NCBI GenBank assembly: GCA_030539495.1
Contig: JAUNRX010000025.1
Span: 1-34,425 of the forward strand
DNA: 34,425 nucleotides
Source of the DNA: a bacterium
GTDB lineage: Bacteria > Bacillota > Clostridia > Lachnospirales > Lachnospiraceae
Direction: 5' to 3'
Below the pieces are notes generated by a model. That model ran no database searches, was not told where the DNA came from, and worked only from the letters and a program-made list of their open reading frames with translations. Positions within the stretch are counted from its first letter, which is position 1. Every line of letters begins with the position of its first letter. Both the position numbers and the translations under genes were made by a program. Positions 2,352 through 9,460 of the stretch are shown here, piece by piece.

Positions 2352-5300
2352 CTATTTTGTAGCCATATAGATTGTGTGTACTCTAATGGAACGACTTTCA
2401 TCTTCATAAGTAACTCGAATTGAGTTTACTCTTCCAGTTAATAGGCCTCCATTGATTACAATCTTTCCATCTTGAAGTACTTCATCAGCTTCTATTACTG
2501 TAATAGAACTTCCTGTACCAATTCGTACTTCGCTTGGAAGTAACTTAGCTCCTGTTTGATCTATAATTTCATCTGCAATGACAACATTTTGTCCTTCTTC
2601 CTTTGCCATCCCTACTGTAACATATTGATCAATCGCACTAAATTCTGTTAACTTTTTAAGCTCAGAAAGTACGCTGTAATCTGTAATCTCATTATAGTCT
2701 ACATTTAAAGAAGTTAAGTTCTTTGCATATTGTAGGCCTTCTAAGCTTGTAATTGCTTCTGCGCTGGCATCTAAGCTTGTCAGTTTTAACATATCACCTA
2801 CTGTGATTGTATTTGTGCTAAGCTTTAATGCAGATTTAACTTGTTGTAATAAAGCCTTGTCTTTAATTACTACTTTTTGAGTAAGGTCTACGCGTACTAA
2901 TGCATTATATGCTTCTTGTAATGCTGTAAGATGAGAGTTGATCTCTGCTTGATCATAACCATCTGCCATTCCTGCATTTACTTGATCTCTTACTTCAATT
3001 AAATGAGCATATGTTTCTTCTGTACATTCTGCTTCATTTAATCTATTTACAGTTTCTAATAAGCTTACTAATTCAGAACGGTCAATACCTTGTGTACTAC
3101 TGTTTGCGTAAACAAGTTTTGTGTCACCCCAGTCTGCATGGTCAGAACCTTGGCCATTTCCACCGTCTGTAACTACAAGTTTTAATTCTTTCGCACCGTT
3201 AATATCTACTTCTACATATTTTTGTGCTTGTTTTGATGTCATAATACCTGAGTTGAACTGTAATTCTCCATCTACATAGACTTTGAATTCTACACTTCCT
3301 ACACTACCAAACATTCTACGGTCAACCCCTACATAAGAAGTGAAGTAGTCGAAGTTTTTATCTGTTAAGTCATATACGATTGTTGACGTAGAGTGGGCGC
3401 CGATTCCCTTTTCATACGTAACTTCCCCACCATTTTCATCCGTTAATCGTAATGCATATCCGCTTGTTGCTTTATCCATTACCGGTCTTGTATAGCTGTT
3501 TGTTGTGGATGCATATGCATAGTCAGATAAATATTTATAATCGTTCATATCGACAACTGCTATTGTTCTTGTTTCCGATACTGTATTACCATCGCTGTCT
3601 GTTACAGTATACGTGATTGTATATTCGCCTGGCTGATCGAAATCTACCTCTCCAGTTACGCTTACCTTGTTTGTAAGATCACCATCTTCCTTATCCTGTG
3701 CTTCGAATGCACCTTTAAAGTCAATAGGTTGTCCTACTTTTGTGGAGCAGTATTTTGGAATTGTGATTGTTGGGAATTTCGCACGGATTAATTTTTCTGC
3801 TAATACAAAATCACTTTCAAACATGCTTAAAGCTGGGTAGTCTTTTAAGCTTTCTTTAAATGCTGCAAGCTTTTCAAGGGTATTATATTCTGGATTTAAA
3901 TCAGCTTTCCCGCTATCTGTAAATAATCCATTTAATAATTTGTCTGCTACTTTGTCTTCTTTGTAGAATGTCATTTCGCTGATACTTGCCCAAGCATTGT
4001 AAGCATTTACGAATTCAAACTTTACTCTTCTTGCTTTTGTCTTTGACATTGTCATTACGATCTTGTCATTAATGCTTCCGTTATAAGAACCTGTTCCTGC
4101 TAAGAAGAAGTCATCTCCAGATTCCTCATTGGATACGTAAATATTGAATTGTGTTGCAAATCCTTTACCACCACTTCTTGCTGCATAAGCAATTCGGTTA
4201 ATCTCTTGTTCACTGCCGAAATCAAAGATTACGTGGTTTTTGAATGTGTTGCTGTTGGCAACTCCAGTTTCCCAGTGCGTTGCTAAATTACCGTCAATTG
4301 CATATTTAATTACGCTAGAACCATAATTTCTACCATTGTTTGTAATGGATGCCACTGGAATTTTGAACATTTCATTGTAATCATTTAGATTGGTAAATGT
4401 TCCGTATTTTGATTTTTCTACTGCTAAATCTTCGTAAATCGTAACGTACGTAGATTTGTCTACTGTGTTTCCGTCGCTGTCTGTAACACGGTATACTACT
4501 TCGTAACGTCCTGTTTTTGTTTCATCAATTGTATTTTTTACAATCTCAACTTTATTAGTTAAATCACCATCTTCTACATCGGATGCGCTCAATTCATCAC
4601 GAAGCTGGATTGTATCGCCAAGTTTATATGTCTTATTCGTTGCTGTCATAACCGGCTTTTTATTATTGGTTGTAAGTCTTGTTGCTGCTACAATACCATG
4701 ATCGGAAGTATTCCCGTTGCTAGAGTCATTTACTACGATCTTAAGTTCTTTAACATCAGTTAAATCAATGGAAACGAATTTGGCTTCTGTCTGATGTTTC
4801 ATTACTCCTGAGTTATATACTTCTGTTCCGTCTGCATAGAATTTAAAGGTAATACTGGAGTTATTTTGCTCCACAATGGTTTGGTCCACGCCTACATAAG
4901 CTTCAAACGTATCATATCCAAGGTCGGAAACATTGTATACAATTTCTGCATTGGCATGTGCATAAAAACCTTTTTCAAAGCTTCTTACTTTGCCGTTCAT
5001 CAATAAGGATAAATTTTGATTTTTACGTATGCTTCCCCATTGAGTGGTCGCTTTTTCCCAATTCAAGTCAGATAAGGAATCATATCCACTTACTACCTGT
5101 ACGTTTATTGTCTCTGTCTTTGTATAGCCGTTGCTTGTAATGGAATAAGTTACTTGATACGTTCCTTTTTGGGATGTATCAACGTTATGGCTTACTATCA
5201 CGTCCGTAATTGCTTCTCCCCTATGGTCAACTGCATTCACGAATTCTAATGGATTAAACTTGCTGTGTAATTCAAGTGTAATCTTTTCATCTGTCATAAG

Positions 5301-7715
5301 TGTTGGTTCGAAGTTACTTACTGTCTTTGTATTTGTTGTGGATAAATCATATCCGTAAGCAATTACTTCATAAACTGCTTCTTTGTCCTGGCTTGCTTTT
5401 GTATCGGTATAGCTATTTGTAGATGTGAATGCAACTAACTTGCCATCTTTATATACCTCGTATCCCATAACGTCAGACTTATCTTCTTCATTTACGGAGA
5501 ATGTTAATTGAAGTTCTGTTTCAGATTTTACATTCTTCACTACATTTACGCTTGTGTTTTCATTTACACCATCGCCTTTGTAGTTAATTGCATAGGTGTT
5601 AAGATACCAGATCTTGTCCTCTGGTTTACTGTAAACACTTACTTTTTCTTTTGTTTCATCATTTACGGTAAATCCATGACGTGCAAAGTGTTCACTAAGA
5701 TCTTTGCCTAAGATTTCAGAAGAGAACTCAATTAAATATTGTTGTTTTGAATTTTCTTGTTCAGCTGGATCAAGTGTTACATTTCTTTCACGGTACATTT
5801 GATTGAGTCTTGCCCAATATCCTGGATAGTACATTTCTAACTGCCAGAATACACCGATACGTTCAAAGAAGCCTTGGCCTGCAAATGCTGGTGGGTTCTC
5901 AGAAACTACGTTTTTATAAATATGGCTTTCATAAGGTGTTCTGCGATCGATTGTATTGTAAATTACAGACGTATACATCGCTAACATATTATTTGTGGAT
6001 TCACCATAAAGTCTTGTGTTAACATCCATTCTATGGCCGATTTCATGAGTAAGTCCCCAGTTTCCGCCACCTTGTTCAAATGGAGTTAAGAAGCTTGTTA
6101 CATGGCTTCGTTGTATACCAATATGATTTCCTGCCGCATATAATGCACCAAATGGCTGTGCAAGTCGAACGTTCTCTCTAATATTCATTGGATCATTTTG
6201 AAGGCTGCTTCCATCTAATCCGTAGAAGGAGAAGAGATTTTCCATGTAAGTTGTGTAAGAGCTTACTGTTTCTGCTGGATTAACACCATTTTCAACATAT
6301 GCTTTATAAGCGCCTGTTGCGGTACCTGTAAATACAAGATGTTTTGTTACAAATTCAAAGGTATCGATCATAGTACGGTCTTCTACATTTGGATGTGCTT
6401 TCACATCTTCATCTAGACGTTGTTTGTAGTCTTTTAAATATGCAATAAATGCTTCCGTATCTGTTTCTTCTGTAAGGTAAGGATGTCGCTCTCCGCCTTC
6501 AAAACGAATGATTGGAGCACTTCCTTGCTGCTCTGGAGTATAAGGGTTATAGATATAAAGCGGTCCACCCTTTGTTACGGAATGAGCATACCAGTTGTCT
6601 GTTGGTACTTCTGGGACTTTGATTACATTCTTACCCTTTTTAAGAGTTACAGAACGTTCCCAGTTTGCAAAACTACCTTCTTGTTGTGAAAATGCGATTT
6701 TTGGTAATGGTTTACCATCTTCTACATCTACATAGATTGTAATTGTATCTCCTGGCAATGCTGTGATGCCTGTTGGTTGATAATTGTTACCAAAACCAAA
6801 CTTTAAGTTTTGTGTTGCATGTTTATGACGGTCACCATATTGTTCCGCCTTGATAACTCTTCCTTCAAAGTTTACGCCGCCTTCTACGATCTCAATCGCA
6901 AGGTCAATTTGGCCTGCCAACTCTTCGGAAAGAGGATGATTACTTACTTGTTCTTTTAACTCTGTTAAGAAGTCAACGGAAGCATATTCTTCATTCACTT
7001 CCATATACGCTTGATTCGTAAATAAATTATTTACTTGATCTTTTACCGTATCTTCGCGATAGAATTGGATCTCAGACGCACTTGCCCAACCTTCTCTGGC
7101 TTCCTTAAATACTAATTTCACCTGTTTCATAGTGGTAGGCTCAAATTTAATTTCTACAATATCCCCTGTAGAACCTGTATACTTGGATGTTCCAAGTAAC
7201 TTAAAATCTGAAGCATCATCTGTCTCAGAAACATAGATTTCTAAGTTTGTCGCAAATCCTTTTCCTTTTGCTCCATCTTGTCTTGCTGCATATACTAATC
7301 TTGAAATCGTATCTGCCTCATTAAACTTAACAACTACTTCATTTGTGAAGCTTGTACTATTTGGTTTCCCTGTTTCCCAGTGAGTAGAGAAATCACCATC
7401 AATCGCTTTATCAATGGAGCTGGATGCATATTGCCCACCATTTTGACGAATAGATGCAATATTAGATGCTGCTACTTTAAATACTTCATTATAACTTGCA
7501 AGATCTTTGTGGTTATAAAGATCGAATGTAGTTACGCTCAAGCTTCCTGCTTCTGTAGTTTTTGTTTCTTCTGTCTTTGACTCTTTGTTTGCCGCCTCAG
7601 TGTTTAAGAAATTAATCGTATTCACTGCTGGGGATGCATATGCTGCTACTGGTGCAATTCCTTGATTTAATACCATCGCTGAAAGCATACACATTGCAAT
7701 TTTTCTTCTGTACAT
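2352..7715 (-). CDS. Secreted multidomain M60-family zinc metallopeptidase (mucinase-like)
   Basis: The 1787-residue protein has an N-terminal signal peptide (basic MYRRKIA start, hydrophobic stretch, AYA-S cleavage region). Module order: F5/8C-like carbohydrate-binding domain (about 65-230); M60/enhancin-type peptidase (about 300-730) with the gluzincin motif HEIGH at 557-561 and a third zinc ligand Glu572 ten residues on; fibronectin-III-like domain (about 740-820); Ig-like domain; NPCBM (about 880-1020); DUF5011-type Ig (DGDLTNKV, near 1050); second F5/8C (about 1095-1255); second DUF5011; second NPCBM (about 1400-1540); FIVAR-like helices (1550-1610); short leucine-rich C-terminus. M60 enzymes cleave O-glycosylated mucin-type proteins (family knowledge), so host mucin is the inferred substrate. 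No LPXTG anchor is seen, so it is probably released. The start at 7715 has GAGGAAG upstream; an in-frame ATG at 7766 lies at the U-tract of the leader terminator. Confidence 0.92.
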   Translation of the reverse strand: MYRRKIAMCMLSAMVLNQGIAPVAAYASPAVNTINFLNTEAANKESKTEETKTTEAGSLSVTTFDLYNHKDLASYNEVFKVAASNIASIRQNGGQYASSSIDKAIDGDFSTHWETGKPNSTSFTNEVVVKFNEADTISRLVYAARQDGAKGKGFATNLEIYVSETDDASDFKLLGTSKYTGSTGDIVEIKFEPTTMKQVKLVFKEAREGWASASEIQFYREDTVKDQVNNLFTNQAYMEVNEEYASVDFLTELKEQVSNHPLSEELAGQIDLAIEIVEGGVNFEGRVIKAEQYGDRHKHATQNLKFGFGNNYQPTGITALPGDTITIYVDVEDGKPLPKIAFSQQEGSFANWERSVTLKKGKNVIKVPEVPTDNWYAHSVTKGGPLYIYNPYTPEQQGSAPIIRFEGGERHPYLTEETDTEAFIAYLKDYKQRLDEDVKAHPNVEDRTMIDTFEFVTKHLVFTGTATGAYKAYVENGVNPAETVSSYTTYMENLFSFYGLDGSSLQNDPMNIRENVRLAQPFGALYAAGNHIGIQRSHVTSFLTPFEQGGGNWGLTHEIGHRMDVNTRLYGESTNNMLAMYTSVIYNTIDRRTPYESHIYKNVVSENPPAFAGQGFFERIGVFWQLEMYYPGYWARLNQMYRERNVTLDPAEQENSKQQYLIEFSSEILGKDLSEHFARHGFTVNDETKEKVSVYSKPEDKIWYLNTYAINYKGDGVNENTSVNVVKNVKSETELQLTFSVNEEDKSDVMGYEVYKDGKLVAFTSTNSYTDTKASQDKEAVYEVIAYGYDLSTTNTKTVSNFEPTLMTDEKITLELHSKFNPLEFVNAVDHRGEAITDVIVSHNVDTSQKGTYQVTYSITSNGYTKTETINVQVVSGYDSLSDLNWEKATTQWGSIRKNQNLSLLMNGKVRSFEKGFYAHANAEIVYNVSDLGYDTFEAYVGVDQTIVEQNNSSITFKFYADGTEVYNSGVMKHQTEAKFVSIDLTDVKELKIVVNDSSNGNTSDHGIVAATRLTTNNKKPVMTATNKTYKLGDTIQLRDELSASDVEDGDLTNKVEIVKNTIDETKTGRYEVVYRVTDSDGNTVDKSTYVTIYEDLAVEKSKYGTFTNLNDYNEMFKIPVASITNNGRNYGSSVIKYAIDGNLATHWETGVANSNTFKNHVIFDFGSEQEINRIAYAARSGGKGFATQFNIYVSNEESGDDFFLAGTGSYNGSINDKIVMTMSKTKARRVKFEFVNAYNAWASISEMTFYKEDKVADKLLNGLFTDSGKADLNPEYNTLEKLAAFKESLKDYPALSMFESDFVLAEKLIRAKFPTITIPKYCSTKVGQPIDFKGAFEAQDKEDGDLTNKVSVTGEVDFDQPGEYTITYTVTDSDGNTVSETRTIAVVDMNDYKYLSDYAYASTTNSYTRPVMDKATSGYALRLTDENGGEVTYEKGIGAHSTSTIVYDLTDKNFDYFTSYVGVDRRMFGSVGSVEFKVYVDGELQFNSGIMTSKQAQKYVEVDINGAKELKLVVTDGGNGQGSDHADWGDTKLVYANSSTQGIDRSELVSLLETVNRLNEAECTEETYAHLIEVRDQVNAGMADGYDQAEINSHLTALQEAYNALVRVDLTQKVVIKDKALLQQVKSALKLSTNTITVGDMLKLTSLDASAEAITSLEGLQYAKNLTSLNVDYNEITDYSVLSELKKLTEFSAIDQYVTVGMAKEEGQNVVIADEIIDQTGAKLLPSEVRIGTGSSITVIEADEVLQDGKIVINGGLLTGRVNSIRVTYEDESRSIRVHTIYMATK

Positions 7716-7768
7716 TTTCTTCTTCCTCTCAATATACCCATCAAACACAGTCACAGAGTCATACATAC

Positions 7769-7835
7769 AAAAAAAGAGAATGCTAGCACTTTAAGATCAC
7801 AAAGTTTTCTGTTCACCTAAAATACTACATTCTCT
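7769..7835 (-). terminator. Leader terminator between the c-di-GMP-I aptamer and the M60 gene
   Basis: On the minus strand AGAGAATG (7828-7835) pairs with CATTCTCT (7775-7782). The stem continues with TAGTATTTTA against TAAAGTGCTA, allowing two G-U pairs and one bulged G, and is followed by TTTTTTT. It lies about 55 bases before the peptidase start and about 70 bases after the aptamer, the usual place for an expression platform. Confidence 0.85.
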
Positions 7836-8233
7836 AATACTATTTATTCATAACCGATTCCATGCGTTAGGAATCGAACATTTACTAAATAAACAAAAAG
7901 TAAGATGTACTCTTTGGCAACTGGCTGACATAGTATCGTATGATACGTTAGTCCCTATAGCTTTGCGTCCCTAAGTTTTCTTAGGTTTGCCTATGAAATT
8001 ATTTCGAAGTCATTCTAACATAAAGATTTTTTAATTCCTATATGGGATAATGAACAATATTTTCGACATAATTCTACATGTTTTTTGTTTATTCTCGTCA
8101 ATAACTGGGACTGTTAACTTAATTAAACTAATTTTTTAGTATATTTCCCTAGTTCTAAGGTCCTAGTCCTATCTTTTATCCATTTTATCCCATGACTGCT
8201 TGTTCCACTTAAGCGATACACTTTAATTTCCTA
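7836..8233. other. Intergenic region between peptidase leader and phosphofructokinase gene
   Basis: Besides the riboswitch, this stretch holds a secondary hairpin (CGATTCC/GGAATCG near 7853-7876, minus strand) between aptamer and terminator that may belong to the switching platform. A weak promoter-like TAGAAT (minus, 8012-8017) sits just before the aptamer. The remaining 8020-8233 is AT-rich with no gene and no clear terminator for the phosphofructokinase gene. Confidence 0.5.
7906..8003 (-). ncRNA. Cyclic-di-GMP-I (GEMM-I) riboswitch aptamer
   Basis: Read on the minus strand, the element holds the conserved core in order: GGCAAACC (7984-7991), a short hairpin with an A-rich loop (CCTAAG-AAAA-CTTAGG), GGGACGCAAAGC with the ligand-contacting region (7960-7971), a second arm with CTAA and TATG in the places of a tetraloop receptor, capped by GTATC-ATAC-GATAC, then CAGCCAGTTGCC (7916-7927). 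GGCAA (7987-7991) can pair with TTGCC (7916-7920) to close the element. These are the signature segments of the GEMM-I class, which binds cyclic di-GMP (established knowledge). It is followed on the same strand by an intrinsic terminator and the peptidase gene. Whether the ligand turns expression on or off cannot be told by eye. Confidence 0.9.
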
Positions 8234-9460
8234 TTACTTATCTAAATAAATATGCTGTGGCAATCCATCAATAAAAATTGGGGATAATTCTGCCTGGATT
8301 AATGGTCTTGCATAGTCTAAAAATTCCTGTGTCATGCAAGTATGATCTTTATTTAACCATTCAATTGGGACTTTCTTTTCGAAGTTTGCAACCTGGTGAA
8401 TATCCACTAACTGAGTCGTACATTGATATGGGTCGTTGGAAAGACGTACTAAGGATACCATTTCCCCTGTATGGCCTTCAAATGCTGCTTTTACTGCTGC
8501 CCCACCAACTTGGAATGCCTCTGTAATATCTGTCCTGCTTGTCATGTGGGATGCACAACGTTGTAACGTAGAAAGCTCAATTGCTCTTGTCTTCGTATCT
8601 AATGCAGCTGCAACCCTGTTTGCCAAGTATTTTGCTGTGCCTGATAAGCTAGTATGTCCAAAGGAATCAACAAAACGTGCATCATCCGATAACTCACACA
8701 CATATCTTCCATCTGCAACCTTAACTCCTTCAGAAACTGCGATCACGATGGACTTCTTTTCTTTTTGCATACGTTCTACCTTAGCAATAAAGTTTTCTAC
8801 ATTAAATGGGTACTCTGGAAGACAGATCATATCTACCCCTTCACAGTCCGGACCATTTGCAAGACTTGCTGCTGAAGTAAGCCATCCAGCATTTCTTCCC
8901 ATGATTTCTACGATGGTAACATAATTTGTTCCATATACTGTAGCATCACGAACTAATTCTTTCATTACTACTGCTATATATTTTGCTGCTGAACCATATC
9001 CTGGTGTATGGTCTGTCACTGCTAAATCATTATCAATTGTCTTTGGAACACCGATAAAACGAATATCGCTTCCAATGGATGCTGCATAGTCAGATAACTT
9101 CATAATCGTATCCATACTATCATTTCCACCTATGTAAAAGAAATAACCGATATCTAATTTCTCTAACTTTTCAAATATCTTCATATAAATCTGCTCATCT
9201 TCAGTTACCGAAGGAAGTTTAAATCTACAGCTTCCTAGATAAGAGGATGGCGTTCTTTTTAATAATTCAATTTCTACTTGTCCGGAGATCTTTTCTCCCA
9301 TATCAATATAGTCATCATTAATAAATCCTTCAATCCCATGACACATTCCGTAAATTTTGTCTGCCCCACGTCGAAGCGCCGCCTGATACACCCCTGCCAA
9401 CGTCGCATTGATTACTGCCGTAGGTCCTCCACTTTGTCCAACAATTACATTCTTATTCAT
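8234..9460 (-). CDS. 6-phosphofructokinase, probably pyrophosphate-dependent
   Basis: The enzyme phosphorylates fructose 6-phosphate to fructose 1,6-bisphosphate in glycolysis. The 408-residue protein opens with VIVGQSGGPTAVINATLAG (phosphate donor loop) and has IGGNDSMDT, PKTIDND, EIMGRNAGWL and SEGV. In E. coli ATP-PFK the first two are GGDGS and PGTIDND. Asp in the second position (GGND) and Lys in PKTIDND are the residues that block ATP and mark pyrophosphate users (established for the family), so PPi is the inferred donor. It is longer than the 320-residue ATP enzymes, as expected for that clade. An AGGAGG six bases before the ATG fixes the start. It appears monocistronic. Confidence 0.88.
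   Translation of the reverse strand: MNKNVIVGQSGGPTAVINATLAGVYQAALRRGADKIYGMCHGIEGFINDDYIDMGEKISGQVEIELLKRTPSSYLGSCRFKLPSVTEDEQIYMKIFEKLEKLDIGYFFYIGGNDSMDTIMKLSDYAASIGSDIRFIGVPKTIDNDLAVTDHTPGYGSAAKYIAVVMKELVRDATVYGTNYVTIVEIMGRNAGWLTSAASLANGPDCEGVDMICLPEYPFNVENFIAKVERMQKEKKSIVIAVSEGVKVADGRYVCELSDDARFVDSFGHTSLSGTAKYLANRVAAALDTKTRAIELSTLQRCASHMTSRTDITEAFQVGGAAVKAAFEGHTGEMVSLVRLSNDPYQCTTQLVDIHQVANFEKKVPIEWLNKDHTCMTQEFLDYARPLIQAELSPIFIDGLPQHIYLDK

Follow-up and report, generated by a model that had tools for sequence, protein, structure and literature searches.

A c-di-GMP-I riboswitch is a likely transcriptional OFF switch of a secreted M60 peptidase gene in a Lachnospiraceae bacterium

The gene of a secreted M60 peptidase, located on the minus strand of the DNA stretch analyzed here (34,425 nucleotides of contig JAUNRX010000025.1, hereafter the window), is preceded by a c-di-GMP-I (GEMM-I) aptamer and by an intrinsic terminator. 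We consider it likely that these elements constitute a transcriptional OFF switch of a secreted M60 O-glycopeptidase, a reading in which we infer ligand binding, the direction of control and the substrate from what was computed here, that is, the aptamer, the terminator, the enzyme and the recurrence of their pairing. When c-di-GMP is low, by analogy in motile cells, the 5′ arm of the terminator would be paired with the 3′ strand of the aptamer and with the adjoining tail (GUUGCCAAAGAGUACAU); upon formation of this antiterminator, RNA polymerase would read through and the enzyme would be made. At high c-di-GMP the ligand would hold the 3′ strand within the aptamer and the tail would form its own hairpin, so that the terminator would form and the enzyme would not be made. 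Known targets of c-di-GMP riboswitches are flagella, pili, adhesins and one protease that sheds adhesins. If M60 enzymes are recurrently linked to such riboswitches in several families, the switch between motile and sessile life would be coupled directly to the breakdown of host or environmental glycoproteins.

The coordinates of the leader and of the gene are given in Table 1. A covariance search aligned the minus strand with RF01051 along the whole model (positions 1–87 of 87) and well above the gathering score of 35, which bears out the original prediction of a GEMM-I aptamer on this strand; the interval 7769–8003 proposed at that time comprises aptamer and terminator together. Within the 34-kb window, no other Rfam match was obtained at the gathering threshold. 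The leader (8003–7716) folds better than 200 out of 200 shuffled sequences (z −4.2). A simple terminator scan of the window returned 0 terminators, probably because it permits loops of only 3–8; folding then located the stem at 7835–7775, where an intrinsic terminator following the aptamer had been anticipated. This stem begins 80 nt past the GCC of the aptamer, with which it has no strand in common. The tail hairpin (CAAAGAGU...ACUUUUUG) is conserved across seven aligned platforms, six of the genus of the window and one of family f64 (families are referred to by handle, f1 being that of the window), and presumably keeps the tail sequestered in the ligand-bound state. The inner part of the spacer hairpin (CGAUUCC..GGAAUCG, 7855–7876, minus strand) is missing in the orthologous leader (L015/L011) and is hence probably dispensable; judged from this comparison, the gap shows a site where the platform would tolerate insertions. 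A promoter scan of positions 7000–9000 returned zero minus-strand promoters. The position that distinguishes c-di-GMP from cGAMP, which we take to be G20 in the numbering of Vc2, appears to be a G in the window when read by eye from the RF01051 alignment. A G20A change has been modelled with cGAMP bound (passage in PMC6274999). The neighboring genes look ordinary: a family 2 glycosyltransferase (1157–2146) lies downstream and a phosphofructokinase of the diphosphate type (8234–9460) upstream of the leader.

Table 1. Features of the leader and of the M60 gene in the window, with the basis of each assignment
Feature	Position	Strand	Basis
Extended −10-like element TGTTAGAAT, 5′ of the aptamer	8012..8020	−	By inspection; clear −35 absent
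c-di-GMP-I (GEMM-I) aptamer	7913..8001	−	RF01051, 78.1 bits, E 6.3e-14
Proposed antiterminator strand A: aptamer 3′ strand GUUGCC plus tail AAAGAGUACAU	7900..7921	−	Role inferred
Aptamer 3′ tail hairpin CAAAGAGU...ACUUUUUG	7894..7916	−	Alignment of 7 platforms; pairing by inspection and in folds
Spacer with hairpin	7841..7895	−	Outer limits by inspection
Intrinsic terminator: stem-loop 7835–7775 (−25.7 kcal/mol) and U-run 7774–7769	7769..7835	−	Folding
Proposed strand T: AUGUA...GGUGAAC in terminator 5′ arm and loop, candidate partner of the aptamer 3′ strand	7811..7830	−	Sequence comparison
Shine-Dalgarno-like GAGAGG ahead of ATG 7715	7725..7730	−	By sequence
Secreted modular M60 peptidase, 1787 aa, ATG 7715	2352..7715	−	Frame correct; Pfam; secretion judged by eye
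Peptidase_M60 domain (PF13402)	5679..6359	−	64.3 bits on protein (cut-off 25.8); 68.3 bits in genome search

The frame assigned to an M60 peptidase in the original prediction proved correct. Pfam recognizes in the protein, besides the M60 domain, two F5/8 type C, two NPCBM and three Ig-like modules. The catalytic motif is intact, with HEXXHX10E at residues 557–572 (H557, E558, H561 and E572), the range of the M60 motif being HEXXHX(8,24)E. Residues 60–796 match PDB entry 7jfs at 1.3e-181; for PDB chains with the molecule names ZmpA and ZmpC glycopeptidase the values are 1.7e-73 and 1.3e-72, and residues 1327–1776 match entries 7jrl and 7jrm. The protein is thus kin to the M60 glycopeptidases of solved structure ZmpA, ZmpB and ZmpC, which it closely resembles in the sequence of both the catalytic and the ancillary modules; no paper linking these three enzymes to a riboswitch was found among the listings and passages returned by the literature search. 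M60 enzymes cut O-glycoproteins, and the solved Zmp structures are presumably those of C. perfringens enzymes that cut mucin-type O-glycoproteins, the PDB table giving molecule names only. The enzyme probably cuts sugar-coated proteins such as those of mucus; the label "mucinase" follows only from its kinship with the solved glycopeptidases and from its carbohydrate-binding modules. By inspection, its N-terminus, which is basic and hydrophobic with AYA, resembles a signal peptide. The gene is the only M60 gene found in its own genome, which is rated 91% complete.

Other M60 genes were then searched for GEMM elements upstream, as had been proposed for the original prediction. A draw of 397 genomes from the family of the window contained 41 genomes with M60, at 42 places, 41 of them above the cut-off. 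RF01051 was searched in 42 M60 genomes (40 from the draw plus G002 and G003) with stricter filters, at which weak matches are lost, and was found in at least 15 of them. Outside the genus of the window, GEMM-I lies directly upstream of M60 in 1 of the 40 genes above the cut-off (genome G165). A draw of 391 genomes from the class contained 33 with M60, at 38 places, 31 above the cut-off and 30 when the window is excluded. RF01051 was found in 15 of 32 M60 genomes of this draw, and GEMM-I precedes directly 7 of the 30 genes (in G707, G612 twice, G725, G742, G743 and G824), spread over families f77, f87, f64 and f81; a rough chance expectation, for which 2800 genes per genome were assumed and not counted, is 0.015 cases. 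The distance from the aptamer to the longest M60 frame ranges from 70 to 196 nt in G165 and in the class-draw cases. Across these loci, the sole same-strand frame of at least 80 aa between aptamer and M60 is a mechanical 89-aa TTG frame at locus L175, overlapping leader and gene start. Each of the two adjacent M60 genes of G612, found at this locus, is preceded by a GEMM-I leader of its own, the two leaders being almost the same.

Stretches of up to 5 kb upstream of 60 other M60 loci served as a control, and at the gathering threshold none of the Rfam riboswitch families was found in them; five stretches (L186, L189, L211, L220 and L238) are shortened by contig ends, and the control leaves out two M60 places in G700 and another in G562. 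As 39 of the 40 M60 genes of the family outside the genus are without GEMM-I, control by c-di-GMP is no general property of M60 genes. On a tree built from 70 M60 domains, the 10 rows with GEMM require 6 changes, at least 5 of which the starred branches make necessary; so low a number was reached by 0 of 500 shuffles. The nearest rows to the window are its orthologue and G742, a genome of another family (SH-aLRT 98); other joins are uncertain owing to several long branches, and the f64 M60 genes found later are left out of the tree. Because the pairing of aptamer and M60 recurs in several other bacterial families, the change from swimming to settling probably turns off this kind of enzyme. In agreement with the original prediction, for which no such case was known, the listings and passages returned by the literature searches describe no c-di-GMP riboswitch ahead of an M60 gene, and the "M60" of PMC6200980 belongs to a DOI; the riboswitch class is known, and M60 as its target looks unreported in the literature searched. 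In C. perfringens, the gene of an F5/8 type C protein lies 507 bp from a GGDEF-type gene, the passage in question not stating if the protein is an M60 (PMC2879425); this adjacency may be a hint of the same link to c-di-GMP.

The leader of G742 and that of the window have in common the aptamer, the tail CAGCCAGTTGCCAAAGAGTACAT...ACTTTTTGTT and an M60 gene of one clade, and it appears likely, though not proven, that riboswitch and gene moved together between families. Allowing up to one mismatch, the tail occurs in 20 of 206 genomes of family f64, to which G742 belongs, at 24 places; the pattern shortened by one base is present in 4 of 145 genomes related to that of the window, all four belonging to its genus. 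The tail precedes M60 in 12 of 18 f64 loci, namely G742 and 11 of 17 others, 16 of them covered over about 9 kb and L275 over only 1.35 kb, as detected with an HMM made in this analysis and with the first ATG frame of at least 150 aa scored per locus; six further f64 places were covered over 1.5 kb only. Among these six, the tail type of the window precedes flgB-flgC in L255 and L257 and a GGDEF/EAL protein in L248, the latter arrangement being a possible feedback loop. At L256 and L263 the conserved tail is present and the aptamer core is absent within 75 nt upstream; these may be decayed or rearranged copies. The gene behind the M60-type leader of L265 is apparently a shortened one; its product, of 567 aa, begins like a Zmp enzyme and lacks the M60 motif.

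The direction of control can be compared with that of described systems. In C. difficile, the seven functional class I switches are all OFF (passage in PMC6366702). Cd1 of the C. difficile flgB operon is an OFF switch whose antiterminator joins strand A of the aptamer to strand T of the terminator (PMC9262584). Cd1, likened here by its description and not by its sequence, and the leader in the window share the aptamer class, a separate downstream terminator and, as proposed for the window, an antiterminator made of a strand A and a strand T, and near relatives of the platform of the window precede flgB-flgC; they differ in that the target is here an M60 peptidase and that the putative antiterminator is weaker.

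The terminators of family f64 differ from that of the window. In 21 of 24 f64 platforms there is an 8-bp pairing between the tail AAAGAGUA and the sequence UACUCUUU of the terminator's 5′ arm, with single-locus shuffle p values from 0.007 to 0.223; the pairing fails in L246, L253 and L263, the last of them without an aptamer core. Tail variants AAAGGGUA and AAAGAGUG and the arm variant UGCUCUUU preserve it by means of G-U pairs, and since the changes are one-sided they do not represent true covariation. By analogy with OFF switches such as Cd1 (PMC9262584), this pairing is their A-to-T antiterminator. The 8-bp match of f64 type is absent in the window, where the longest run is of 7 with G-U pairs (p 0.037), and the tail/arm runs are chance-like in the paralogues L001 (p 0.997) and L008 (p 0.977).

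As for the antiterminator, which the original prediction had proposed to look for by folding, the window has a likely candidate of different composition, GUUGCC with GGUGAAC plus UACAU with AUGUA, the duplex energy of which is not significant alone when compared with shuffles (p 0.056; 0.17, 0.35, 0.11 and 0.009 for the other four platforms of the genus). Comparison supports it: all five platforms of the genus having the window-type terminator retain the motif GGYNAAC (GGUGAAC, GGUGAAC, GGUUAAC, GGUGAAC and GGCGAAC), and a sixth, L010, has another terminator and lacks the motif. While the 3′ arm of the terminator is incomplete, the antiterminator state of the window is computed to lie 1.1–2.8 kcal/mol below the isolated aptamer plus the rest and to make up 18–40% of the ensemble; once the leader is complete, the terminator state is the more stable one by 11.6 kcal/mol. 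In this model, the ligand could reverse the small advantage of the antiterminator. It cannot block the terminator directly, as the latter lies 80 nt off and does not overlap the aptamer.

A second layer could be added to termination, the Shine-Dalgarno site being hidden by a strand behind the terminator that the tail of the aptamer can peel off; we regard such two-layer control as unlikely. It is suggested by the f64 M60 leaders, in which the strand AAUGURC(U) after the U-run continues into a stem that hides the Shine-Dalgarno site. Pairing between this strand and the tail is seen in 11 of the 12 confirmed f64 M60 leaders vs. 1 of 9 others, with single-locus p values of 0.013–0.050 in the 10 M60 leaders computed. 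The counts leave out L241 (M60 motif absent) and L256 (gene cut by the contig end), both strand-bearing, and L263 (no aptamer core); L243 and L257, without a recognized terminator and outside the opening computation, were judged by eye, the former counted as pairing and the latter not. With the first 12 bases unpaired, the unpaired fraction of the Shine-Dalgarno site rises from 0.16–0.33 to 0.77–0.95 in nine confirmed strand-bearing M60 leaders (L244–L247, L249–L252 and L258). However, L264 shows the same opening (0.31 to 0.92) without the strand, and opening is therefore not specific; in L242, where the strand is displaced, there is no opening (0.02 to 0.04). The non-M60 leader L255 has, moreover, a 7-base match of other sequence (p 0.052) which, if counted, raises the others to 2 of 9. 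Fisher's p is 4e-4 with 1 of 9 or 2e-3 with 2 of 9, relatedness not being corrected for. In the window itself the match between tail and post-terminator strand is no better than chance (p 0.365; 0.46 in the orthologue), with a predicted opening of the site from 0.50 to 0.88, and a translational layer is not supported there.

A wider scheme would unite these elements: a dedicated riboswitch and M60 unit, probably moved horizontally, in several families of the class, with a tail used three times (own hairpin, antiterminator and release of the Shine-Dalgarno site), by which mucin-type O-glycopeptidases are made only at low c-di-GMP, alongside flagella. We put it forward tentatively, as a possibility that we doubt somewhat more than we believe. 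If true, cells would cut through or off glycoprotein surfaces when leaving.

The opposite direction of control, an ON switch in which c-di-GMP favors read-through and the enzyme is made by sessile cells, for instance to graze mucin glycoproteins while attached, appears improbable to us. A mucus-degrading role of attached cells is plausible, and class I switches can indeed be ON, as Bc2 is, or work without termination, as in V. cholerae (passage in PMC6366702). The terminator overlapping the 3′ strand of the aptamer that an ON switch needs was encountered in 4 of 27 family platforms for which a terminator was found. This survey left out loci without the exact core GACGCAAAG and kept 81 distinct platforms, 46 of them without a recognized aptamer end, 8 without a terminator and 27 with one. 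The terminator of the window, however, is not of this kind, given its distance from the aptamer, and the tail-to-5′-arm antiterminator of related platforms, two of which precede flgB, fits an OFF switch.

The OFF switch predicts that M60 enzymes are shut off as c-di-GMP rises. The original prediction had pointed to a secreted protease of C. difficile under a c-di-GMP riboswitch, and this parallel holds: a class I riboswitch, Cdi1_12, precedes the gene of the secreted zinc metalloprotease ZmpI/PPEP-1 (CD2830), which is repressed by c-di-GMP through it (passages in PMC4591827). The predicted logic is the same in the window, with a secreted protease made at low c-di-GMP. ZmpI/PPEP-1 belongs to a peptidase family other than M60. 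It differs also in its role, as it sheds the adhesins of the cell itself (PMC4591827).

The genome of the window, searched by family and by stretches, contains three GEMM-I copies: that of the window, one at C206 preceding a stretch without a long frame, and one at C149 preceding a transglutaminase-like secreted protein. Three of the four genomes of the genus have M60, and GEMM-I lies immediately before it in the genome of the window and in G002. In record JAUNJY01, which is probably G002, the M60 protein is 84% identical to that of the window in the best segment, and its leader carries a GEMM-I element of equal score. In G003 (76% complete) the M60 is a different one, and the contig carrying it contains no GEMM-I. 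The same type of GEMM-I platform precedes about 400–500 nt without a long frame in 4 of 4 genomes of the genus. It is very unlikely that the aptamer is intact and its control of M60 weak or lost, or that it senses another cyclic dinucleotide: the M60 leader could be a copy of those platforms, of the 16 c-di-GMP riboswitches of C. difficile only 11 are functional (PMC6366702) and cGAMP-sensing riboswitches were originally annotated as c-di-GMP-sensing (PMC9262584, both in passages), but the aptamer of the window scores the same as its paralogue (78.1 bits each), the orthologue in G002 retains aptamer, tail and terminator, and the base deciding for c-di-GMP appears by eye to be present.

The non-coding stretches behind GEMM-I, at L001:1708–2141 (G000, C206), L008, L009:150–592 (minus strand) and L010, each end in a terminator of their own, which by inspection is strong in L001, L008 and L009. 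With the terminator included, their folding z is −7.2 (L001) and −6.8 (L009), for an RNA of about 430 nt, and no Rfam match was obtained for the stretch at the gathering threshold. We regard the stretch as a candidate for a non-coding RNA under c-di-GMP control. A precedent for such leaders is provided by RCd11 and RCd12, non-coding antitoxins of C. difficile prophages under class I riboswitches (passage in PMC11477304); the RNA of this genus differs in measuring about 430 nt and in having a terminator of its own (L001, L009). A role as CsrA sponge is not supported: three of the four genomes of the genus possess CsrA, and GGA counts do not exceed the dinucleotide-shuffle level in any of the five stretches tested, the count in L010 being above mononucleotide shuffles only (12 vs. 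6.6, p 0.0135). AGGGA is mildly raised in the five stretches (3, 4, 4, 4 and 1 vs. dinucleotide-shuffle means of 1.0, 1.0, 1.7, 1.0 and 0.3; p 0.066, 0.024, 0.094, 0.010 and 0.318, in the same order).

Two further arrangements were observed next to these paralogous riboswitches. At L001:177–1448, a gene ending just 5′ of the riboswitch and its non-coding stretch encodes an HD-domain protein (Pfam HD_5) with the motif HHExWDGTGYP, HD-GYP-like by eye. At L005:3880–4220 there is a 6S RNA (RF00013), followed 85 nt on by the third GEMM-I of the genome and then by the transglutaminase-like secreted protein.
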